Assembly: GCF_007954405.1 (NCBI RefSeq)
Contig: NZ_CP042344.1
Coordinates: 62,001-126,000 of the forward strand
DNA length: 64,000 bases
Origin: Comamonas flocculans
GTDB lineage: Bacteria; Pseudomonadota; Gammaproteobacteria; Burkholderiales; Burkholderiaceae_C
Reading direction: 5' to 3'
This document shows, in pieces, positions 13,252-60,357 of this stretch; the stretch's first letter is position 1; each line of letters opens with the position of its first letter. The translations under genes were made by a program, and so were the position numbers. The notes under the pieces are model-generated. The model saw only the letters and a program-made list of their open reading frames with translations, had not been told where the DNA came from and made no database searches.

Positions 13252-14247
13252 TCAGGAAAACCAGTGCGCCACCGTGGGCGGCAAGGCCATGCCGGTGGCA
13301 TGGGCACGCTGGAGCAACTGCCAGAAGTAGCGGTAGCTCGCGCGGTCATGCAGAGTGCCGGCGTCGCTGATCGGCGCCCACTCGGCCGTCTGGGCCGCGA
13401 GCAGAATGCGCGCGGCATCGGCGACCTCGGTGTCGGCCGGCGCCATCGCCGCCAGAATGGGCCGGATCTGCGCCGGGTGGATGCTCCACATGCGCGTATA
13501 GCCCAGCTCCTGGCTGGCACGCCGGGCGGCGGCCTGCATGGCGGCCGTGTCCTTGAACTCGGTGACCACGCAATGCGACGGAACCTTGCCGTGCGCGTGG
13601 CAGGCACTGGCGATTTCAAGCTTGGCGCGCACCACCAGCGGGTGGCTGAACTGGCCCGCCGAGCCCATGGCCGACGCCGGTATCGCACCGCCGTGCGCCG
13701 AGACGAAATCCATCAGCCCGAAGGACAGGCTCTGCACCCGCGGGTGCGCGGCGATGTCGAAGGCGCGCTGCACCGCCGCCGGCGACTCTATCAAAACATG
13801 TAGCGGCAAGCGCGCGCCGGCATTGCGTTGCAGGGCTTTTTCAGCGAAAAGAACATCGTCCACGCTTTCCACCTTGGGCAGCATGACGTGGCACAACCGG
13901 TCGGCCGCCTCGCCGAGGATGGTGTCCATGTCCTGCGCAAACGCCGGGTGATCGACCGGATGCACGCGCACCGCCACGCGCGCGCCCGGATCGCTCTCGC
14001 GCACCAGCGCGGCCACCAGGCGTGCATGCTGCGCCTCGCCGCCCACGGGAGCGCCGTCCTCGCAGTCCAGCGTGACGTCGAACACGCAGGTACCGAACTC
14101 GCGCGTCATCTCGGCCTGCAGCTGCAGGCTCTTGCGCATGCGCGTCTGCACGCCACTGTAGTGGTCGCACACCGGCAACACGGCGGCGCCGGCCTGCGGG
14201 CCGAGCAAGACCCGGGCGGGATGGGTTGCAACAAGGTGCTGGGTCAT
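13252..14247 (-). CDS. HpcH/HpaI aldolase / citrate lyase beta (CitE)-like protein
   Basis: 331-residue TIM-barrel lyase of the CitE-like family, which cleaves or thioester-hydrolyses malyl- or citramalyl-CoA-type substrates. Visible: FDVTLDCEDGAPVG (metal/CoA region), LPKVESVDDV, LIESPAAVQRAFDIA, FGLMDFVSAHGG and a C-terminal WSIHPAQIRPI. These match stand-alone malyl-CoA-lyase/CitE-like enzymes, not the citrate lyase complex (no citD or citF nearby). The start ATG at 14247 overlaps the tam stop (ATGA). The substrate is inferred only by family. Confidence 0.88.
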   Translation of the reverse strand: MTQHLVATHPARVLLGPQAGAAVLPVCDHYSGVQTRMRKSLQLQAEMTREFGTCVFDVTLDCEDGAPVGGEAQHARLVAALVRESDPGARVAVRVHPVDHPAFAQDMDTILGEAADRLCHVMLPKVESVDDVLFAEKALQRNAGARLPLHVLIESPAAVQRAFDIAAHPRVQSLSFGLMDFVSAHGGAIPASAMGSAGQFSHPLVVRAKLEIASACHAHGKVPSHCVVTEFKDTAAMQAAARRASQELGYTRMWSIHPAQIRPILAAMAPADTEVADAARILLAAQTAEWAPISDAGTLHDRASYRYFWQLLQRAHATGMALPPTVAHWFS

Positions 14248-49735: not shown

Positions 49736-51280
49736 TCAGTGCCCTGGCGGTCCGGCCCCTTGCGGCTCCTGCGCCGCGGGCGCGCCTGCCGGTTGCGCGC
49801 CTGCTGCGCCATCCGCGCTCCACGGCGCCTGCCAGCCGCCGCCCAGCGCCTGCACCAGCGCCACCACGGCCTGCTGGCGCTGCAGTTGCAGCTGCATCAG
49901 CGCCCGGCGCGCGCCCAGCGTGGCCGCCTGTGCCGTCACCACGCTGGTGTAGGCCGTAAGCCCCGCCTGGTAGCTGTTGAGCGTGCGCTGCTCGGCCCCC
50001 GCCGCCGCATCGGCGGCCGCCCGCTGATGCACGATCTGGCGCTCCAGCGCATCCAGCGCGGTGAGCTGGTCTTCCACCTCGCCCAGCGCGCCGAGCACGC
50101 TCTGGCGGTAGCGCGCACCGGCCGCCTGCTGCGCGGCGATGGCCTGCTGCAGCGCGGCGTCGCGGCTGCCGCCGTCGAACAGGGTTTGGGCAATCGCCGT
50201 GCCCAGCGACCAGGTCAGCGCCGGCACGGACAGCAGATCGGCGATGCTGCCGCCCGCGGCGCCCAGCCCGGCCGAGAGGCTCAGGCTCGGGAACCACGCG
50301 GCCTGCGCCGCGCCGATGCGCGCATTGGCCGCGGCCACCTCGCGCTCGCTCGACGCCACGTCGGGGCGGCGCAGCAGCAGCTCGGAAGGCAGCAGCGGCG
50401 GCACCTGGGGCACCGCGTCGCGCCAGCCGGCCGGCGCCAGCGTGAACTGCGCCGGCGCCCGCCCGAGCAGCAGCGCAATGGCGTGCTCCGCGCTGGCGCG
50501 GCTGCGCGCCAGGCCCACGCGCGTGGCGCGGGCGTTTTCCAGCGTGGTCTGCGCCTGCAGCAGGTCGGCATGCGCAGCGACGCCCGCGCGGTAGCGGTTG
50601 CCGGTGATCTCGCGGGCACGCTCGTAGCCGGTGATGATCTCGTCCATCAGGCGCATTTCGGCGTCCAGTTCGCGCACCTGCAGATAGGCCTGCACCAGGC
50701 TGGCCCGCGCCGCCAGGCGGGCGCCGGCCAGGTCCGCCTCGCTGGCCTGCAGCGCCGCCTGCTGCGCCCGCACGCCCGCGGTAATGCGCCCCCAGAGGTC
50801 AGGCGCCCAGCTCGCCGCCAGGCCCAGGCTGGCGCTGCCACGCGCCGGCTCGCCGCCGCGCTGCGCTGCGGCCTGCAGGCCCAGCGTGGGCAGGCGCTGG
50901 GCCTCGCTTTGCTGCAGCAGCGCCTGCGCCTGGGCGACGTTGGCCGCGGCCACGGCGATGTTCTGGTTGCCGGCGTCGAGCTGCGCCACCAGCGCGTCGA
51001 GCGCCTCATCGCCAAACAGCTGCCACCACTGGCCGTCCTGCCAGCGCCGGTAGTCCGAGGTGCTGACCCAGCCTTTGGGGGCAGCGCTTTTCCACTGCGT
51101 GGGCAAAGGCGGCTCAGGCGCGGTGGGTGGCAAGGTGGTGCTGGAGCAGGCGGCCAGCAGGGCGCTGGCGAGCAGCAGGGCGGGCAGCTTGCGGGGTTTT
51201 GCGGTATGCCAAAAATTTACATGAAAAGTGGCTGAAACGCTTGCCCAGCAAGCGCTGGCAGCTAGCAAAACAGAGGACAC
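49736..51280 (-). CDS. RND efflux outer-membrane channel lipoprotein (NodT/OprM family)
   Basis: Outer-membrane factor of the mdtABC pump. Lipobox LLAAC with the Cys codon at 51146-51148, preceded by a normal signal peptide core (KPRKLPALLLASALL). Two OEP repeats follow, with APDLWGRITAGV and GLGAAGGSIADLLSVPALTWSLGTAIAQTLFDGG. The start is unclear: no ATG lies near the signal peptide. The GTG at 51280 has a GGAGG box 7 bases upstream, contributed by a repeat. The next in-frame ATG (51424) overlaps the mdtC stop and would read through two repeats, placing the lipobox Cys at residue 93. The body is complete. Confidence 0.85.
   Translation of the reverse strand: MSSVLLAASACWASVSATFHVNFWHTAKPRKLPALLLASALLAACSSTTLPPTAPEPPLPTQWKSAAPKGWVSTSDYRRWQDGQWWQLFGDEALDALVAQLDAGNQNIAVAAANVAQAQALLQQSEAQRLPTLGLQAAAQRGGEPARGSASLGLAASWAPDLWGRITAGVRAQQAALQASEADLAGARLAARASLVQAYLQVRELDAEMRLMDEIITGYERAREITGNRYRAGVAAHADLLQAQTTLENARATRVGLARSRASAEHAIALLLGRAPAQFTLAPAGWRDAVPQVPPLLPSELLLRRPDVASSEREVAAANARIGAAQAAWFPSLSLSAGLGAAGGSIADLLSVPALTWSLGTAIAQTLFDGGSRDAALQQAIAAQQAAGARYRQSVLGALGEVEDQLTALDALERQIVHQRAAADAAAGAEQRTLNSYQAGLTAYTSVVTAQAATLGARRALMQLQLQRQQAVVALVQALGGGWQAPWSADGAAGAQPAGAPAAQEPQGAGPPGH
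51211..51270 (-). repeat. Dispersed GATAGCTGCCAGCGCTT-type repeat, copy 7
   Basis: On the minus strand TTTTGCTAGCTGCCAGCGCT, TGCTGGGCAAGCG, then TTCATGTAAATTTTT. It sits exactly where the start codon of the efflux lipoprotein gene would be expected. Confidence 0.8.
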
Positions 51281-51283
51281 CCT

Positions 51284-51400
51284 GCTCCCTCCCCCTTCGG
51301 GTGAGGGCTGGGGTGGGGGCCAGCGGCGTGGGCTTTTTCCACTGCCGTTGAAAGAGCTGGCGGCCCCCATCCCGGCCTTCCCCCGCTGGGGGAAGGAGGC
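51284..51400. repeat. Paired GC-rich hairpin repeat (BIME-like), copy B
   Basis: Left arm 51284-51327 (CTCCCTCCCCCTTCGGGTGA, GGGGTGGGGGCCAGCGGCG) and inverted right arm 51357-51400 (CTGGCGGCCCCCATCCCGG, CCCCCGCTGGGGGAAGGAGG), about 29 bases apart. It occupies the mdtC / outer-membrane lipoprotein junction. Confidence 0.8.
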
Positions 51401-51420
51401 AGAAGGCAGATCGGGCAGGG

Positions 51421-54400
51421 TCATGCTCCCTCCAATGCGGGGCGGTGTGTGGGTGCGGCTTCGGGCCTGGCGCGGCGCAGCTTGTCCAGCAGCACGTAGA
51501 CGGCGGGCGTGGTCAGCAAGGTGAGCAACTGGCTGGCAATCAGCCCGCCGACGATGGTCACGCCCAGGGGTTGGCGCAGCTCCGCGCCCTCGCCAAAGCC
51601 CACGGCCAGCGGCAGCGCGCCCAGGCCCGCGGCCAGCGTGGTCATGAGGATGGGGCGAAAGCGCAGCAGGCAGGCCTCGCGCACCGCCTGCACGGCGCCG
51701 AGGCCGCGCGTGCGCTGCACCTCGATGGCGAAGTCGATGATCAGGATGGCGTTCTTCTTGACGATGCCGATGAGCAGGAATACCCCGATCAGCGCCATGA
51801 TGGAAAACTCCATCTTCAGCAGCATCAGCGCCAGCGCCGCGCCAAAGCCCGCGCTGGGCAGCGTGGTGAGCACGGTCAGCGGATGGATCAGGCTCTCGTA
51901 GAGCATGCCGAGCACGAGGTAGATCACCACCACGGCGGCCAGGATCAGCAGGCCCTGCTCGGACTGCTGTTGCTGCCCCATGGCGAGCGCGCCGTCGAAG
52001 GCGCCGCGCACCTTGTTGGGCATGCCCACGGCGTCCACCGCGTCCAGCACGGCCTGGCGGCCCTGCTGCTCCGATACGCCATCGGCCAGGTTGAAGGACA
52101 GCGTGCTGGAGAGCTCGCCGCCGTCATGGAACACGCTGGCGGGCACGGCGCGCTCGGAAAAGCGCGCGAATTCCGACAGCGGCACCATGGTGCGCCCGCT
52201 GGTGGAGATCGCCGCGCCGGTGGAGCTGGCGCGCAGCGCCGGGTTGACCACGCTGCCACTCGTCTTGCCCGCGGGCACCATCACGTCGCGCAGCGTGGCG
52301 GGCGACTGGGCGTAGCGCGGCGCCCATTCCATGATCACGCTGTACTGGTTCAGCTCGCTGTACATCGTGGCCACCTGGCGCTGGCCGAAGGCGTTGTAGA
52401 GCGCATCGTTGATGGCCGAGGGCGCGATGCCCAGGCTGGCGGCCTTGGCGCGGTCTACCTCGATGAAGGTTTCCACGCCGTTGTCACTCATGTCGTCGTC
52501 GATGTCGCTCAGGCGCGCGTCCTGCTTGAGCTGGGCGGCCAGGCGCTGCGTCCAGGTCTTGAGGTCGCCCTGGCTGTCGGCCTTGAGCGTGTACTGGTAG
52601 GTGGCGTTGCTGCTTCTGCCGCCCATGCGCAGCTCCTGCGCGGGGTTCAGGAAGATGCTCAGCCCGGTGATGGTGGCCAGCCTGGGCCGCAGGCGGTTGA
52701 TGACGGTGCGCGTCTTCTCGCCCTTGGGCCGCTCGGCGGCGGGCTTGAGCGCGCCAAACAGAAAGCCGCCGCCGCTGCGCCCACCGGCGTAGGCGACGAT
52801 GGTGCCCACCGAAGGGTCGGCACCGATGATGTCCGCCGCCTGCTGCAGCTTCTCGCCAAAGGCAAGCGAAGAGATGCTCTGGTCGGCACGCAGCCCGGCG
52901 AAGAACTGGCCGTTGTCCTGGTCCGGGAAATAGCCCTTCTGGATATGCACGAAGAGATAGCCGCTGAGCGCCACGACCACCGCCAGCACCAGCACCACCA
53001 GCCAGGGGAAGGCCAGCGTCCAATCCAGCGCATGGCCGTAGCCGCGCATCAGCGCACCCCAGCCACGACCGAGCCTTTGCCGCAGCCAGCCGGCCGCGCT
53101 GCGCCGGGGCGGCGCATCCGCCGCGCGCCTGGCCTGGTGCGCCGGCAGCAGCAGCGCGCACAGCATGGGCGTGGTGGTGAGCGAGATCACCAGCGAAATC
53201 ATCACCGCCACCGACAGCGTGACAGCAAACTCGCGAAACAGCCGCCCCGGCTGCCCGCCCATGAACAGCAGCGGAATGAACACCGCCACCAGCGAAACGC
53301 TGATGGTGAGCACCGTGAAGCCCACCTCGCGCGCGCCATCCAGCGCCGCCTTGCCGCGCGCCACGCCCTGCTCCAGGTGGCGCGAGATGTTCTCTATGAC
53401 GACGATGGCGTCATCCACCACGAAACCCGTGGCCACCGTCAGCGCCATCAGCGTGAGGTTGTTCAGCGAATAGCCCAGCCCCGCCATCACCGCGAAGGTG
53501 CCCAGCAGCGAGACCACCGTGGCCACCGCCGGAATCAGCGCCGCGCGCAGGTTGCCCAGGAACAGGCCCACCACCAGCACCACCAGCAGCACGGCCACGG
53601 CCAGGGTGATCTCCACCTCGTGCACCGAGCCGCGCACCGAGCCGGTGCGGTCGATCGCCACCTGCAGCTGCACGTCCTGCGGCAGTTGCGCGCGCAGTTG
53701 CGGCAGCAGCGCCTCGATGGCGTCGGCGGTGGCGATGAGGTTGGCGTCCGGCTGCTGGGTGATGTTGACGACGATGGCCGGCTGGCCGTTGAACATGCCG
53801 CGCGTGCGCACGTCCTGCACACTGTCGCTCACCGTGGCCACCTGCGACAGGCGCACCTCGGCCCCGTCGCGCACGGCCACCACCAGATCGCGATAGTCCG
53901 CCGCGCGCAGCCCCGGCGCGGGCGTCAGCACCTGAAACGCCCGCCCGTCCTGCGCGCCGCCGGTCTCCACCACGCCCTTGGGCCGGTTGGCATTGCTCGA
54001 CTGCAGTGCGGCGCGCACGTCGTCGCTGCTGATGCCCAGGTCGTGCAGCACGAAGGGGTTGAGCTCCACGCGCACGGCTGGCTGCGAGCCGCCGCCCAGC
54101 GTCACGTCGCCCACGCCCGGCACCTGCAGCAGGCGCTGGCTGACGATGTTGTTCACCGCATCGAAGATCTGCCCCGGCGAGCGCGTCCTGGACGTGAGCG
54201 CCAGGATCATGAAGGGCTGCGCGGCGGGGTTGGCCTTGCGGTAGGTCGGGTTGGAGCGCAGATTGGCCGGCAGATCGATGCGCGCGGCATTGATGGCCGC
54301 CTGCACGTCGCGCGCGGCGCTGTCGATGTTGCGGTTCAGATCAAACTGCAGCACCACGCGGCTGGAGCCGGTGCTGCTGGAGCTGGTCATCTGGTTGACC

Positions 54401-54627
54401 CCGGCGATGGTGCCAAGCCGGCGCTCCAGCGGCGTGGCCACGGTGCGCGCCATGTCGGCGGGGCTCGCGCCAGGCATGCTGGCGGAGACGAAGATGACGG
54501 GAAAGTCCACCGCGGGCAGGCGCGCCACGGGCAGCGTGAGGAAGGCGGCGATGCCGGCGAGCGCCAGGCCTATGGTCAGGAGGATGGTGGCGATGGGGCG
54601 GCGGATGAAGGGGCGGGAGAGGTTCAT
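51421..54627 (-). CDS. mdtC: RND efflux pump inner-membrane subunit MdtC
   Basis: 1068-residue RND transporter with 12 membrane helices and two large periplasmic loops. The N-terminus (RPIATILLTIGLALAGI...LPAVDFPVI) and the segments SASMPGASPADMARTVATPLER and MTSSSSTGSSRVVLQFDLNRNI are MdtC-like. ATGFVVDDAIVVIENISRH carries the proton-relay Asp pair of helix 4. It works with MdtB as a heteromultimer and with MdtA. The start ATG at 54627 has GAGGGG upstream. A repeat-filled gap of 559 bp separates it from mdtB. Confidence 0.95.
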   Translation of the reverse strand: MNLSRPFIRRPIATILLTIGLALAGIAAFLTLPVARLPAVDFPVIFVSASMPGASPADMARTVATPLERRLGTIAGVNQMTSSSSTGSSRVVLQFDLNRNIDSAARDVQAAINAARIDLPANLRSNPTYRKANPAAQPFMILALTSRTRSPGQIFDAVNNIVSQRLLQVPGVGDVTLGGGSQPAVRVELNPFVLHDLGISSDDVRAALQSSNANRPKGVVETGGAQDGRAFQVLTPAPGLRAADYRDLVVAVRDGAEVRLSQVATVSDSVQDVRTRGMFNGQPAIVVNITQQPDANLIATADAIEALLPQLRAQLPQDVQLQVAIDRTGSVRGSVHEVEITLAVAVLLVVLVVGLFLGNLRAALIPAVATVVSLLGTFAVMAGLGYSLNNLTLMALTVATGFVVDDAIVVIENISRHLEQGVARGKAALDGAREVGFTVLTISVSLVAVFIPLLFMGGQPGRLFREFAVTLSVAVMISLVISLTTTPMLCALLLPAHQARRAADAPPRRSAAGWLRQRLGRGWGALMRGYGHALDWTLAFPWLVVLVLAVVVALSGYLFVHIQKGYFPDQDNGQFFAGLRADQSISSLAFGEKLQQAADIIGADPSVGTIVAYAGGRSGGGFLFGALKPAAERPKGEKTRTVINRLRPRLATITGLSIFLNPAQELRMGGRSSNATYQYTLKADSQGDLKTWTQRLAAQLKQDARLSDIDDDMSDNGVETFIEVDRAKAASLGIAPSAINDALYNAFGQRQVATMYSELNQYSVIMEWAPRYAQSPATLRDVMVPAGKTSGSVVNPALRASSTGAAISTSGRTMVPLSEFARFSERAVPASVFHDGGELSSTLSFNLADGVSEQQGRQAVLDAVDAVGMPNKVRGAFDGALAMGQQQQSEQGLLILAAVVVIYLVLGMLYESLIHPLTVLTTLPSAGFGAALALMLLKMEFSIMALIGVFLLIGIVKKNAILIIDFAIEVQRTRGLGAVQAVREACLLRFRPILMTTLAAGLGALPLAVGFGEGAELRQPLGVTIVGGLIASQLLTLLTTPAVYVLLDKLRRARPEAAPTHRPALEGA

Positions 54628-54668
54628 GGTTGATCCCCTCTGCACCGGGAGCTTGCCCTCTGCGGATT

Positions 54669-55235
54669 GACTCCCTCCCCCGCTGGGGGAGGGTTGGGGC
54701 GGGGGCCTGCGGCGCGGGCATTGCCAATGTCTTGTCTTTGCAGACGTCCGAGGCCGGGATGTGCGCTCCGACGCACATGCTCACCGCGCAAGCGAGCCGC
54801 CGCAGGCGCAGCCGAGGGGATGGGGGTGTGCGAGCGCCCCTGCGTTCCATGTACCCCGGACTGGTACCCGTATCCGTTTTCGGGGTCCCCTCTGGCTGTG
54901 CCGAGGAGCGCAGCAGTCGGGGTGGGCGAATGCGCCGCAGGACGCATTCGCTTCGTGATCTGACTTGCCGCGTCTGTCTGAACGCAGCGCGTCAGCGCGC
55001 AGTGAGTTTCGCGGCACACCCCGACCGCGAGCGCCGCAGGTTGCCCCGTAGCGCAGTGCAGGGGACACCGACAGCGGGGTCGCCTTTCTTTTGGGCACTT
55101 TTCTTTGGCGAAGCAAAGAAAAGTGCCTCGCCCGCCGGGGCGAGACCCGGCCTCCGGCGTCTGCAAGACAAACAGCTCTGAATTTTTCATCGCCGCTGGC
55201 CCCCACCCCCGCCCTCCCCCAGAGGGGGAGGGAGT
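54669..55235. repeat. Paired GC-rich hairpin repeat (BIME-like), copy C, split by a MITE-like element
   Basis: Left arm 54669-54714 (GACTCCCTCCCCCGCTGGGG, GGGCGGGGGCCTGCGGCG) and inverted right arm 55191-55235 (CGCCGCTGGCCCCCACCCCC, CCCCCAGAGGGGGAGGGAGT). The arms match over about 46 bases but are ~475 bases apart, because the element at 54731-55172 lies between them. The right arm is inside the mdtB coding sequence and encodes its last ~16 residues. Confidence 0.8.
54731..55172. mobile_element. MITE-like non-coding element with terminal inverted repeats
   Basis: About 440 bp bounded by ~27-bp terminal inverted repeats: left CTTGTCTTTGCAGACG-TCCGAGGCCGGG, right CCCGGCCTC-CGGCGTCTGCAAGACAA, with two mismatches and one gap. 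Inside are three perfect stems: ATGTGCG/CGCACAT (54759-54778), GCGAATGCG/CGCATTCGC (54926-54951) and the 14-bp GGCACTTTTCTTTG/CAAAGAAAAGTGCC (55094-55127). No convincing open reading frame and no transposase. It could be a transposase-dependent MITE or a structured RNA gene. Confidence 0.65.
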
Positions 55236-58200
55236 GAATCCCGGCTCTCTCCCAAAGGAAGAGCATCTTCCACCGGCCGCCCGCCAAACCTTTCCCCCCA
55301 ACGATCAAACCAGATGTAAATCACCGGCGTGGTGAACAGCGTCAGCAACTGCGACAACACCAACCCGCCAAAAATCGAAATCCCCAGCGGCCGCCGCAAC
55401 TCCGCCCCATCCCCCCAACTGAGCATCAGGGGCACGGCCGCCGCCAGCGCCGCCAGCGTGGTCATCAATATCGGCCTGAAACGCAGCAGCGCCGCCTGGT
55501 GGATGGCCTGCACCGCGCTCTTGCCCTCGTGGCGCTCGGCTTCGATGGCGAAGTCGATCATCATGATGGCGTTCTTCTTGACGATGCCGATCAGGAGCAC
55601 CAGGCCGATGATGCTCACCACGTCCAGCGCATGCCCGGTGAACTCCAGCGCCAGCAGCGCGCCCACGCCCGCCGAGGGCAGCGTGGAGAGGATGGTGAGC
55701 GGATGCACGTAGCTCTCGTACAGCACGCCCAGCACGATGTAGACGCAGACCACGGCCGCCAGAATCAGCCAGAGCTGGTTGGCCAGGGACTTTTCATACG
55801 CGCCTGCGGCGCCGGTAAAGCGCAGCGTGAGGCTCGCGGGCAGGCCGGCCTGCACCGCCGCCGTGCTCACCGCCTGCACCGCCGCGCCCAGGCTCACGCC
55901 GGGGGCGGTGTCAAAGCCGACGGTGGCCGCGGGGTACTGGCCCACGCGCTGCACCGTCAGCGCGGCGGGCTGCTCCAGCACCTCGGCAAAGGAGGACAGC
56001 GGCGTGCTACCCCCGCCGCTGGTCTTCACCGGCAGGTCGCGCAGCAGTTGCAGGCTGGCGGCCTCGGGGCGGGCGGCTTCCAGGATCACGCGGTACTGGT
56101 TGGTCTCGCTGAAGATGGTGGAGACGATGCGCTGGCCGTAGGCGTTGTACAGCGTGTTGTCCAGCGTGCTGGTGGCCACGCCCAGGCGGGCGGCGGTGTC
56201 GCGGTCCACGCGCACCATGGCCGAGGGGGCGGTCTTGCCCGCGTCGGTGGTGGCGTGGCGCACCTCGGGCAGGTCGGCAATCACCGCGACGAGCTTGCGC
56301 GCCCATTCGCCCACCAGCCGGGTATCCACGCCCTCCAGGTCAAAGCGGTACTGCGTTGCGCCGGTATCCGAATCGATCGTCAGGTCCTGCGTGGGCTGCA
56401 GATACAGCTGCACGCCCGCCACCTGCTCGGCCACCCGCGTGCGCAGGCGCTGCATGATGGCCGCTTCGGTATCGCCAAACAGCGCGCGCGGCTTGAGGTT
56501 GAGCACCAGTCGCCCGGACGACAGCGCCGCGTTGTTGGCCGCATCCACCCCCACGACGGAGCTGAGCGAGGCGACCGCCGGGTCGGCCAGCACGATGCGC
56601 GCCACCTCGCCCTGCAGTTGCGACATGCGGGCGAACGACACGTCGCTCGCCGCCTGCACCTGCCCCTGCAGCTGGCCGGTGCTTTGCGTGGGGAACAAGT
56701 CCTTGGGAATCAGCACGTAGAGCAGCGCCGTCACCGCAAAGGTGGCCAGCGCCAGCCACAGCGTGAAGCCCTGGTGGCGCAGCACCCATTGCAGGCCGCC
56801 GTCGTACCAGCGGATCATGGCGTCCACGCCCGATTGCAGCGTGCGCGCAATGCGGCCCTGGGCCTCGTCCAGCGGCCCCAGCACGCGCGCCGACATCATC
56901 GGCACCAGCGTGAGCGAGACCAGCGCGGAAAACAAAATGGTGATCGCCAGCGTGACCGCAAACTCGCGAAACAGCCGCCCTATCACCTCCTGCATGAACA
57001 AGAGCGGTATCAGCACCGCGATCAGCGAGACGGTGAGCGAGATGATGGTGAAGCCGATCTCGCCCGCGCCCGCCAGCGCGGCCTGCAGCGGCGGCTTGCC
57101 CATCTCGCGGTGGCGCGCGATGTTCTCGATCATCACGATGGCGTCATCGACGACGAAGCCGGTGGCAATGGTCAGCGCCATCAGGCTCAGGTTGTTGAGC
57201 GAATAGCCCAGCAGGTACATCGCCCCCACGGTACCCAGCAGCGAGATCGGCACCGCGATGCTGGCAATCAGGGTGGCGCGCAGGCTGTGCAGGAAGGCAA
57301 AGATCACCAGCACCACCATCACGATGGCCAGGATCAGCTCCATCTCCACATGCTCGACCGATGCGCGTATGCCCAGCGTGCGGTCCGACAGCACCGCCAG
57401 CTGCACGCTCTGCGGCAGGCCTTGCTCCAGCAGCGGCAACTGGCGCTTGATCGCGTCCACCGTGGCAATGACGTTGGCGCCGGGCTGGCGCTGCACGTTG
57501 ATGATGATGGCGGGGTTGAGCGGCGTGGCAGAGCGTGAATCAGGTGCGGCCGATCGCCCTCGCCCCTCTGGGGAGAGGGAGGGGTGAGGGGCCTGCGCCG
57601 CGCCGCCTTCCCCCTTGATCCCCGTCCACGCCCCCAGCCTGTCGTTCTCCGAGCCATCCACCACCTGCGCCACGTCCTTCAGGCGCACCGGCTGGCCATC
57701 GACGTAGGCGACGATCAGCTCCCGGTAGTCCTCGGCGGTCAGCAACTGGTCATTGGCATTGATGCTGTACTGGCGCGTGGGCCCGTCAAACGTGCCCTTG
57801 GCACCGCTGGCGTTGCCGGCGGTGATGGCGCTGCTGATCGCGTCCAGCCCCAGGCCCATGCTGGCCAGCTGCTGCACGTCGCCCTGCACGCGCACGGCGG
57901 GGCGCTGCCCGCCGGCCAGCGTCACCAGCCCCACGCCGTTGATCTGGCTGATCTTCAGCGCCAGGCGCGTGTTCACCATGTTCTGCACTTCGGTGAGCGG
58001 CAGGCTGGTGCTGGTGACCGCCAGCTGCAGGATGGGCGCGTCGGCCGGGTTCACCTTGGCGTAGATCGGCGGCGTGGGCAGGTCGGCGGGCAGCAGGGAG
58101 CCGGCCGCGTTCATCGCCGCCTGCACCTGCTGCTCGGCCGCGTCCATGCTGAGCTGCAGGTCGAACTGCAGCGTGACCATGGACACCCCCGCGCTGCTCA

Positions 58201-58447
58201 CGCTGCCCATGCGCGTGAGGCCCGGCATCTGGCCGAACTGGCGCTCCAGCGGCGCGGTCACGGTGCGGCTCATCACGTCGGGGCTGGCACCGGGGTAGAG
58301 CGTCTGCACCTGGATGGTGGGGTAATCCACCTGCGGCAGCGCGGCCAGCGGCAGAAAGCGCAGGCCGACGAGACCCGCGAGCACGATGGCCACCATGAAC
58401 AGCGCCGTGGCCACCGGACGCTGGATGAACAGGCGCGAGATGTTCAT
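55187..58447 (-). CDS. mdtB: RND efflux pump inner-membrane subunit MdtB, with repeat-derived insert and tail
   Basis: 1086-residue RND transporter. MdtB-like N-terminus (RPVATALFMVAIVLAGLVG, LPQVDYPTIQVQTLYPGASP) and ATGFVVDDAIVMIENIARH in helix 4. Compared with E. coli MdtB from memory, LGAW is followed within a few residues by AIVMNVQRQPGAN. Here about 37 residues (275-311, rich in Gly, Pro, Ser, Arg) lie between LGAW and PAIIINVQRQPGAN. The matching DNA (57557-57600) is an arm of the BIME-like repeat. The C-terminal [16 protein letters not shown] is likewise encoded by repeat DNA. The frame is intact, so the protein may still work. ATG at 58447. Confidence 0.93.
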   Translation of the reverse strand: MNISRLFIQRPVATALFMVAIVLAGLVGLRFLPLAALPQVDYPTIQVQTLYPGASPDVMSRTVTAPLERQFGQMPGLTRMGSVSSAGVSMVTLQFDLQLSMDAAEQQVQAAMNAAGSLLPADLPTPPIYAKVNPADAPILQLAVTSTSLPLTEVQNMVNTRLALKISQINGVGLVTLAGGQRPAVRVQGDVQQLASMGLGLDAISSAITAGNASGAKGTFDGPTRQYSINANDQLLTAEDYRELIVAYVDGQPVRLKDVAQVVDGSENDRLGAWTGIKGEGGAAQAPHPSLSPEGRGRSAAPDSRSATPLNPAIIINVQRQPGANVIATVDAIKRQLPLLEQGLPQSVQLAVLSDRTLGIRASVEHVEMELILAIVMVVLVIFAFLHSLRATLIASIAVPISLLGTVGAMYLLGYSLNNLSLMALTIATGFVVDDAIVMIENIARHREMGKPPLQAALAGAGEIGFTIISLTVSLIAVLIPLLFMQEVIGRLFREFAVTLAITILFSALVSLTLVPMMSARVLGPLDEAQGRIARTLQSGVDAMIRWYDGGLQWVLRHQGFTLWLALATFAVTALLYVLIPKDLFPTQSTGQLQGQVQAASDVSFARMSQLQGEVARIVLADPAVASLSSVVGVDAANNAALSSGRLVLNLKPRALFGDTEAAIMQRLRTRVAEQVAGVQLYLQPTQDLTIDSDTGATQYRFDLEGVDTRLVGEWARKLVAVIADLPEVRHATTDAGKTAPSAMVRVDRDTAARLGVATSTLDNTLYNAYGQRIVSTIFSETNQYRVILEAARPEAASLQLLRDLPVKTSGGGSTPLSSFAEVLEQPAALTVQRVGQYPAATVGFDTAPGVSLGAAVQAVSTAAVQAGLPASLTLRFTGAAGAYEKSLANQLWLILAAVVCVYIVLGVLYESYVHPLTILSTLPSAGVGALLALEFTGHALDVVSIIGLVLLIGIVKKNAIMMIDFAIEAERHEGKSAVQAIHQAALLRFRPILMTTLAALAAAVPLMLSWGDGAELRRPLGISIFGGLVLSQLLTLFTTPVIYIWFDRWGERFGGRPVEDALPLGESRDSLPPPLGEGGGGGQRR
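57557..57600. repeat. Single arm of the GC-rich hairpin repeat inside mdtB, copy D
   Basis: CCCTCGCCCCTCTGGGGAGA, then GGGAGGGGTGAGGGGCCTGC. Same layout as the intergenic arms (palindromic CCCTC...GAGGG plus G-rich tail ending in a GCGCCG-type box) but in coding DNA, in frame. Confidence 0.75.
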
Positions 58448-58466
58448 GCGCCCGCCTCTCTGGTGT

Positions 58467-58590
58467 TCCTCCCTCCCTCTTTGGGAGAGGGCCGGGGTGG
58501 GGGCGCGCGATGCCCAGCACAGCCCGAGCCGTCATGCTCGCGCCGCCAACCCCTCTGCCCCACCCTCTCCCCAAAGGGGCGAGGGAGTCC
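58467..58590. repeat. Paired GC-rich hairpin repeat (BIME-like), copy E
   Basis: Left arm 58467-58508 (CCTCCCTCCCTCTTTGGGAG, GGCCGGGGTGGGGGCGCG) and inverted right arm 58540-58590 (GCGCCGCCAACCCC, CCACCCTCTCCCCAAAGGGG, CGAGGGAG). It fills the mdtA-mdtB junction. Confidence 0.75.
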
Positions 58591-58601
58591 AAAGCCCGCC
58601 A

Positions 58602-59981
58602 TCACCGCGCCGCCCCTTGCTGCCCGCGCCGCTGCGCAAAGAACGCGCGCCGCTCCTCGGGCGTCATCTTCTCCAGCTTCTCGCGCAGCTCGGGCGGCAG
58701 GCGACTCAGGTCGGGTGATTCATTTTCAGTAGCTGCTCGCGCTTGTCCTGTCTGCGTTTGCGCCGCTTTTTGTTCATCATTCAGGCGCACCTTGCCGCCA
58801 TCCTTCACGCGGTCGCCGCCCTCGGTCACCACACGCTCGCCGGCCTGCAGGCCCTGGGTGAGCAGCACCTGCGCGGCGTCGGCCAGGCCGCGCTTGACCA
58901 CCCGGGTGCGCGCCGTGTCGTCGGCATCGACCACATAGACGTAGTCGCCCTGCGGCCCGGTGCGCACCGCCGTCACCGGCACCAGCACGCCCGTTTCCTG
59001 ACCCAGTCGCAGCCGGGCGTTGACGAACTGGCCGGGGAACAGCGCGCCGTCGGCGTTGGCAAAGCGCGCCTTGGCGCGCACCGTGCCGGTGGCGGTGTTC
59101 ACCTGGTTGTCCAGCGTGAGGAAGACCCCCTCGGCCAGCGGCTGGGTGCGCGCGCTGTCCAGCGCCGCCACCGGCAGCTCGCCCACCTTCTGCGCCGCCA
59201 GCACCGCGCCCACGCGCTCCTGCGGCACGGAGAACACCACGTCGATCGGCGTCACCTGGGTGATCACCGCAATGCCCGTGGCGCTGCCGCTGGAAACCAG
59301 GTTGCCCGGATCGACCGCGCGCAGGCCGATGCGCCCGCTGATGGGTGCGCGCAGCGTCGCGAAATCCACGTTCAGCGCCGCCGCGCGCACGCTGGCCTCG
59401 TCGGCCTGCACCGCGCCTTCGAGCTGCTTGACCAGCGCCGCCTGCGTGTCCACGTCCTGGCGGGCGATGGAGTCCTGCGCAAGCAGCGTCTGGTAGCGCG
59501 ACAGCGTCAGCCTGGCTGCGGTGAGTTGCGCCTCGTCGCGCGCCTTCTGCCCGCGTGCCTGGGCCAAGGCCTGCTCGTAGGGCCGCACGTCGATGCGCGC
59601 CAGCACCTGGCCCTTCTTGACCATCTGCCCCTCGGTGAACAGCACTTCGGAGAGGATGCCCGAGACCTGCGGCACCAGCGTGGACGTGACCGGCGGTGTG
59701 ACCGTGCCCAGCGCATCCACCACCACCGGCAGCGTGCCCTGGCGCGCCACGGCCGCCCCCACGGTCACGCCCGGTCCGCCGCCACCGCCGAAGGGCCCGC
59801 CGCGCCCCGGCGGCCCCGCGCCCGGCGCGCCGGGTGCGGGCGCATTGCCGCGCTGCACCAGCCACCACGCGCCGCCCACCAGCAGCGCGATGGCCAGCAG
59901 CGTGAGCAGGAGTGAAAGGCCCTTGCGGTGCGGGCGCGGCGCGGGCGTCGCGGATGGGGGAGTCTGTGCAGGTTCGGCCAT
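58602..59981 (-). CDS. mdtA: RND efflux periplasmic adaptor subunit MdtA
   Basis: 459-residue membrane-fusion protein. One N-terminal membrane helix (about 22-42), a Gly/Pro-rich linker (45-75), lipoyl half-motifs (GILSEVLFTEGQMVKKGQVLARID), a helical hairpin (about 135-200) and beta-barrel (RAPISGRIGLRAVDPGNLV). The C-terminal tail from about 395 is longer than in E. coli MdtA. It contains a dispersed-repeat copy (58719-58776) and ends in a charged LREKLEKMTPEERRAFFAQR segment. ATG at 59981; it heads mdtA-mdtB-mdtC-lipoprotein. Confidence 0.94.
   Translation of the reverse strand: MAEPAQTPPSATPAPRPHRKGLSLLLTLLAIALLVGGAWWLVQRGNAPAPGAPGAGPPGRGGPFGGGGGPGVTVGAAVARQGTLPVVVDALGTVTPPVTSTLVPQVSGILSEVLFTEGQMVKKGQVLARIDVRPYEQALAQARGQKARDEAQLTAARLTLSRYQTLLAQDSIARQDVDTQAALVKQLEGAVQADEASVRAAALNVDFATLRAPISGRIGLRAVDPGNLVSSGSATGIAVITQVTPIDVVFSVPQERVGAVLAAQKVGELPVAALDSARTQPLAEGVFLTLDNQVNTATGTVRAKARFANADGALFPGQFVNARLRLGQETGVLVPVTAVRTGPQGDYVYVVDADDTARTRVVKRGLADAAQVLLTQGLQAGERVVTEGGDRVKDGGKVRLNDEQKAAQTQTGQARAATENESPDLSRLPPELREKLEKMTPEERRAFFAQRRGQQGAAR
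58719..58776 (+). repeat. Dispersed GATAGCTGCCAGCGCTT-type repeat, diverged copy 8, inside mdtA
   Basis: TTCATTTTCAGTAGCTGCTC, GCGCTTGTCC, GCGTTTGCGCCGC, TTTTTGTTCAT: the same order of blocks as the intergenic copies but weaker pairing. It lies within the C-terminal codons (about 402-421) of mdtA. Confidence 0.5.
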
Positions 59982-60357
59982 GTTCGAATTCGTTTTTCCC
60001 TCGGGCCTTCGCATCGTAGCCAGCTGGCGCAAGCAGGCGGTATGGAGCACTTGAAGAAATGTAAAGGCCCCGCGCGCCGCCCTGCGGCAAGCGGGGCAAG
60101 GCGCAATCCAGCGGCGCACAATGCCTGCTTTCTTCCCGAGCGGCGCCCCGGCCTGCGGCAGGCCAGCGCCGCCGGGGTCGATGGCGCCATCCACCGCGCG
60201 GCCGGGCCGCAGCTGCTGGCACGGTGTCGGCGCCCCGGCGGACCTGGCGCTCCATGAACAGCTGCCCGGTGCGCCGCCACAGGCCTGAAACCCTTGCGGC
60301 TATTCGCGCGGCGCTAGGATGGGCCACGACGATCCAACCCAGGCAAGGAGCAACACC
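59982..60357. other. 376-bp intergenic region, mdtA / AHSA1 gene
   Basis: Divergent promoter region with no conserved-looking frame, no dispersed repeat and no strong terminator. It contains a short GGCCTG/CAGGCC hairpin near 60159. TAGGAT near 60315 with TTGCGG 15 bases before it is a weak promoter candidate for the plus-strand gene. No regulator gene for the efflux operon is present here. Confidence 0.5.

Follow-up and report, generated by a model that had tools for sequence, protein, structure and literature searches.

The mdtB locus and its extra segment

We analysed a stretch of 64,000 nucleotides from the chromosome of Comamonas flocculans (contig NZ_CP042344.1, positions 62,001 to 126,000), referred to here as the window, in which the gene mdtB encodes an MdtB/MuxB-type RND permease with an extra segment that contains part of a dispersed, normally intergenic GC-rich repeat. 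The genome of the window (G000) is a single contig of 3,333,437 bases. Family matches of the open reading frames (ORFs) of the window revealed that mdtB is flanked by mdtA- and mdtC-type genes. The initial annotation had described an open frame through the insert, and both this frame, which extends over 1086 codons with the insert region included, and the coordinates were confirmed. It had also proposed about 37 extra residues (275–311) relative to E. coli MdtB. In the alignment to the solved E. coli protein (9lyq_B), residue 276 pairs with E. coli residue 285 and residue 312 with 288, so that residues 277–311 oppose 2 residues; an extra segment is thus present, with a smaller net gain of 33 residues. 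When counted by motif, the corresponding loop comprises 40 residues in G000 and 7 residues in 78 of the 156 loops compared below.

The best NCBIfam model for the protein, NF007798, scored 1369.7 bits against a curated cut-off of 1584, and its match is split in two at the insert; the match to ACR_tran lies far above its cut-off and is split likewise. Ratios of nonsynonymous to synonymous substitution rates (dN/dS) of 0.13–0.30 against seven congeners indicate purifying selection on mdtB, and the DD pair is conserved in all eight aligned sequences. A surface turn had been expected at the insertion site, in agreement with the structure model, which places it at a turn between two strands and predicts residues 280–306 to be disordered (predicted local distance difference test score, pLDDT, <50). 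The encoded peptide is rich in Ala, Pro, Ser, Gly and Arg.

A dispersed GC-rich repeat in the mdtB loop

The covariance model of the GC-rich arm was built from nine seeds. As the mdtB loop copy is one of these, an independent test used a leave-out profile of 107 further arms of the genome, which excludes the mdtB loop copy and the in-gene arms recognised by then but still includes the arm at the mdtB 3′ end. This profile recovered the repeat arm reported in the G000 mdtB loop at E=2e-4 and matched the loops of the congeners G002 (2e-4 and 2.9e-9) and G007 (1.1e-4 and 4.1e-8). The initial annotation had taken the element for a single arm, which holds for its present state; by origin, the G000 loop arm is probably not single. 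The loop consists of arm 1 and a spacer as in G007, after which the native sequence resumes. The 24-nt spacer that follows the arm matches the G007 copy, in which a second arm is present; an in-frame loss of arm 2 is therefore probable. Coordinates of all features are compiled in Table 1.

Table 1. Genes, repeat copies and protein segments around the mdtB insert (window coordinates)
Feature	Position	Strand	Basis
mdtB, MdtB/MuxB-type RND permease, 1086 residues	55187..58447	-	open frame; family matches; alignment to solved E. coli MdtB
Extra MdtB segment (residues 277-311), flanked by strands 273-277 and 311-320	57515..57619	-	alignment to 9lyq_B; structure model
GC-rich repeat arm inside mdtB	57554..57593	-	covariance model, 48.4 bits (own copy is a seed); leave-out profile, E=2e-4
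Putative spacer of former two-arm element, matching the G007 copy	57533..57556	-	direct comparison of sequences
GC-rich arm, mdtB 3′ end	55198..55235	+	covariance model, 61.5 bits (also a seed)
MdtB C-terminal tail, residues 1056-1086, low pLDDT, overlapping the second repeat arm	55190..55282	-	structure model and arm model
GC-rich arm between mdtB and mdtA	58468..58504	-	covariance model (seed)
GC-rich arm in the mdtB-mdtA intergenic region, opposite in orientation to the preceding arm	58550..58588	+	covariance model (seed)
mdtC, partner permease, equivalent loop not expanded	51421..54645	-	family matches; paralogue loop count
Intergenic copy of the AT-richer repeat, downstream of mdtC	51211..51277	-	covariance model (seed)

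Throughout the G000 genome, the arm gave at least 129 matches forming at least 73 clusters, and both figures are lower bounds because the covariance search scored 150 of 621 candidates. Fifty neighbouring matches make inverted pairs, and the arm therefore qualifies as a dispersed, multicopy, palindromic repeat. The consensus of the 107 arms carries neither a GTAG nor a CGTC end and thus lacks the motif of these superfamilies of repetitive extragenic palindromic (REP) sequences, and the genome contained no match to the Y1 transposase family (REP-associated tyrosine transposase, RAYT; PF01797), which is associated with the GTAG superfamily but is not an absolute requirement for it. Each of the six reading frames is free of stop codons in 91 to 109 of 110 arms outside listed genes, and the 43 non-genic arm pairs are open in a mean of 4.74 of six frames; DNA of this repeat can consequently be read as protein nearly always. 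Two chromosomal regions, at about 0.95–0.97 and 1.90–2.05 Mb, are particularly dense in arms.

Arms near the mdtB 3′ end, where the second arm underlies the C-terminal tail of MdtB, were also observed in G002, G001 and G005. An Rfam scan of window positions 51000–60000 yielded mir-641 over a two-arm element and IRES_Bip, both below the gathering score and implausible.

Loop history within the genus

The gene mdtB is present in all nine genomes of the genus that were compared (G000–G008), and its loops span 17 to 94 residues by the motif of the tree analysis, which gives values one residue lower than that of the 156-loop count. GC-rich arms were detected in three of these loops (G000, G002 and G007); that of G002 has both arms and that of G007 has more. 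The profile search detected no arm in the other six, so that relatives without the insert at this place do exist. Among these, G005 holds the AT-richer repeat only, and the loops of G001, G003, G004, G006 and G008 matched none of the repeat profiles. By eye, the G001 loop resembles a decayed AT-richer repeat. The MdtB site of some members of this lineage had probably taken up the AT-richer repeat before the GC-rich one arrived. The suggestion that the segment is an insertion rather than an old loop of constant length agrees with these data, as the loops of relatives differ in length and some of them hold repeats.

Other repeat families in the same loop

The AT-richer repeat has at least 147 matches in G000, a lower bound since 150 of 3767 candidates were scored. 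Its covariance model (R2) was built from six seeds, one of which (window 13786–13854) is by eye probably ordinary coding sequence, and the same doubtful copy is part of the profile of 58 copies used for searching. This profile matched the mdtB loops of G007 (6.7e-5), G104 (1.3e-4) and G005 (8.6e-4). A third, GC-rich family was found in the mdtB loops of five genomes from five other genera (G218, G120, G326, G177 and G131), in two of its mdtB loops in reversed orientation; it is dispersed in all seven genomes searched and has six matches in G000. The G120 loop comprises 177 residues, with six near-identical tandem units of 84 bp, or 28 codons, in frame. Tandem arrays of the third family with the same spacing of 84 bp, a multiple of three, also occur outside mdtB (G014:C30 and G218:C10). 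The three families are mutually unrelated, lie in both orientations and start at different codons of the MdtB loop.

The wider survey covered 299 genomes sampled from a larger bacterial family. We examined 165 loci, nine of which had no loop by motif, to arrive at a set of 156 loops with lengths from 7 to 177 residues. L031 and L037 were left out before counting, being on the same contigs as L008 and L009; the partial L233 was replaced by L248, and L235 and L249 (both G295) were left out because of runs of N, with third-family copies visible in them and no complete loop. As the genome sets may overlap, some loops are possibly one gene counted twice. Repeats at E<=0.01 were found in 10 of the 156 loops (12,762 bases), while the other 387,016 bases of these mdtB genes gave a single repeat match, in a Polaromonas metagenome-assembled genome (MAG), and no arm match. 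In this MAG (L055), a third-family repeat lies in frame at a second place of MdtB, downstream of the loop and ahead of the second protein half.

Two cysteines were noticed in many MdtB loops of Polaromonas and its relatives (L044, L047, L055, L211, L213 and L215–L217). As the L217 loop matches the third family in reverse, decay of a repeat may have produced the cysteine pair.

Comparison with the paralogue MdtC

The loop of MdtC-type proteins is unchanged in length in 110 of 111 sequences and 8 residues longer in the remaining one, whereas 54 of the 130 MdtB-type loops from the same set of loci exceed the modal length. The turn is thus variable in one permease and hardly so in its partner. The active form in E. 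coli is reported as MdtB2C (PMC12802153).

In-frame repeats in other genes

The MdtB loop is not the only protein segment encoded by the GC-rich repeat. Eleven of the 73 scored arm clusters of G000 are read in frame within genes; eight pass a strict test that demands flanking coding sequence on either side within a single open frame, and three with weaker scores were added by inspection. Besides mdtB, these clusters lie in a UvrA-type ORF (three clusters), purL (L145), thrC (L147), mfd (L149), hrpA (L154), a Mu-type portal gene (L152), a PxpB-PxpC-type ORF (L125) and an MmeI-type methylase gene (L124). The UvrA-type ORF (L120, G000:C1:950200-956800) encodes 2053 amino acids within the stretch examined and carries three in-frame elements, one of them composite with an AT-richer repeat between its GC-rich arms. 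A pattern of presence and absence like that of mdtB was seen in purL, where repeats were present in four of the seven congeners read (G000, G007, G005 and G001) and undetected in the other three (G002, G004 and G003); the G006 and G008 genes were not parsed. For the AT-richer repeat, 58 of the 147 matches were examined and five of these copies were flagged as read through. Convincing in-frame cases are purK and rlmD (L187 and L174), while one of the remaining three was spurious and two were doubtful.

Origin and persistence of the MdtB insert

In our opinion, it is very probable that a REP-like element was captured in frame by a permissive turn of MdtB and that this turn has been used repeatedly by dispersed repeats. 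In-frame capture at the DNA level is strongly supported by the sequence comparisons. The element would consist of a spacer enclosed by two GC-rich hairpin arms in inverted orientation and, as a dispersed repeat, would have inserted between strands 273–277 and 311–320 in an ancestor within the genus, next to what was left of an AT-richer repeat that had arrived earlier; in the G000 lineage, later in-frame trimming would have left one arm and the spacer. In relatives, two other families have entered the same turn, and one of them has grown there into an array of six 28-codon units. The insert could persist because the GC-rich arms are free of stops in nearly every frame, because the encoded peptide is modelled as disordered and because the MdtB turn, unlike that of MdtC, varies greatly in length. 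Selection would remove out-of-frame and damaging insertions so that in-frame ones in permissive turns remain. The earlier proposal that repeat DNA has been turned into protein is supported by the sequence comparison, with translation presumed: the peptide is presumably made as part of a working pump that tolerates it, and any benefit is conjectural; a gain of function is not required.

Several observations weigh against this interpretation. The repeat outside the loop in the Polaromonas MAG means that the turn is not the sole place in MdtB taking repeats, and many long MdtB loops contain no recognisable repeat. The profile match of the G000 copy itself (2e-4) is moderate, as is that of the AT-richer repeat in G005, and the quality of the structure model is intermediate (mean pLDDT 70, predicted template modelling score 0.64). 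In the MdtB tree, calculated with the loop excluded, the deciding nodes have support of 57–78, so that insertions and losses cannot be counted.

The long loop might instead be adaptive, the repeat-coded peptide giving the pump a new property under selection. Its retention in three congeners, the six near-identical in-frame units of G120 and the many MdtB-type loops above modal length would fit this explanation, which we nevertheless regard as unlikely: no pattern is apparent in the variation of its length and sequence, several congeners have no insert, the segment is modelled as disordered, and third-family tandem units with the same 84-bp spacing at other loci imply that expansion need not be selected. 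Somewhat harder to sustain is the assumption that the loop DNA is a preferred target of the mobility machinery of the repeats and that recurrence reflects targeting rather than tolerance. In its favour are the three families in one turn and the repeats that adjoin one another in G007 and, by their coordinates, at several sites of the genome; against it stand the lack of relationship between the families, their two orientations and different start codons, the genome-wide dispersal of copies and the absence of a PF01797 match from G000.

That an old loop merely resembles the repeat through GC-rich codons is a notion suggested by the GC-rich genome and by the frequency of loops longer than 7 residues in this bacterial family. 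It is very improbable in view of leave-out E-values reaching from 2e-4 in G000 down to 2.9e-9 in congeners, of 387 kb of remaining gene sequence without an arm match and of six congeneric loops without the arm. A large insert in a conserved protein and family scores below curated cut-offs could likewise point to a broken or misassembled gene, an explanation just as hard to credit given the open frame of 1086 codons, the dN/dS values, the invariant DD pair and the related inserts in G000 and G007, both single-contig genomes.

Capture of repeats by a permissive turn would mean that a conserved membrane protein has acquired new sequence from intergenic repeats more than once, the sources being unrelated to each other. 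It would also serve as a natural experiment revealing where a two-permease efflux pump can accommodate insertions. The matches to NF007798 and ACR_tran are both split at the repeat-coded segment, and segments of this kind may mislead annotation. One can further speculate, more tentatively and without giving it even chances, that repeats land and expand recurrently in the MdtB turn, where no fewer than three unrelated families would have become protein in members of one bacterial family, the MdtC turn meanwhile staying frozen. If this were true, the record of repeats would amount to a natural insertion scan, the two MdtBC permeases would differ in the structural constraint acting on a porter-domain turn, and larger arrays such as the six 28-residue units might be functional in their own right.

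Relation to known systems

E. coli MdtB (9lyq), from the MdtABC pump, shares fold and family with the protein studied here and is its best solved relative, with 2 residues where the C. flocculans protein has 35. Comparable events are described in two publications. Rickettsia palindromic elements are dispersed palindromic repeats found in frame in otherwise conserved genes (PMC3733652), as is the repeat in mdtB; the sequences and bacteria are unrelated, and here three families share one MdtB turn. REPs of the GTAG and CGTC superfamilies occur within coding genes of many bacteria, often as dimers and often in repair genes, e.g. uvrA, and recB of two Xanthomonas species carries a REP at about the same site (PMC3733652). 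The repeats of G000 similarly occur singly or as dimers within coding genes, a UvrA-type gene included, but their arm consensus has neither superfamily end and the genome has no PF01797 match; several families in one turn are not described for intragenic REPs in the part of PMC3733652 available. BRE is a dispersed betaproteobacterial repeat of about 90 bp, known also from Comamonadaceae, with some copies entirely inside coding sequences (PMC3110155); by its description, it resembles the repeats studied here in its dispersal and its intragenic copies. As intragenic REPs and BRE copies in coding sequences have been described, this kind of event is already known. The literature searched contained no report of repeats in the MdtB loop or of the entry of unrelated families into a single loop of one subunit. 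That three families have been taken up by the same loop, and in only one member of a subunit pair, seems to be a new observation.
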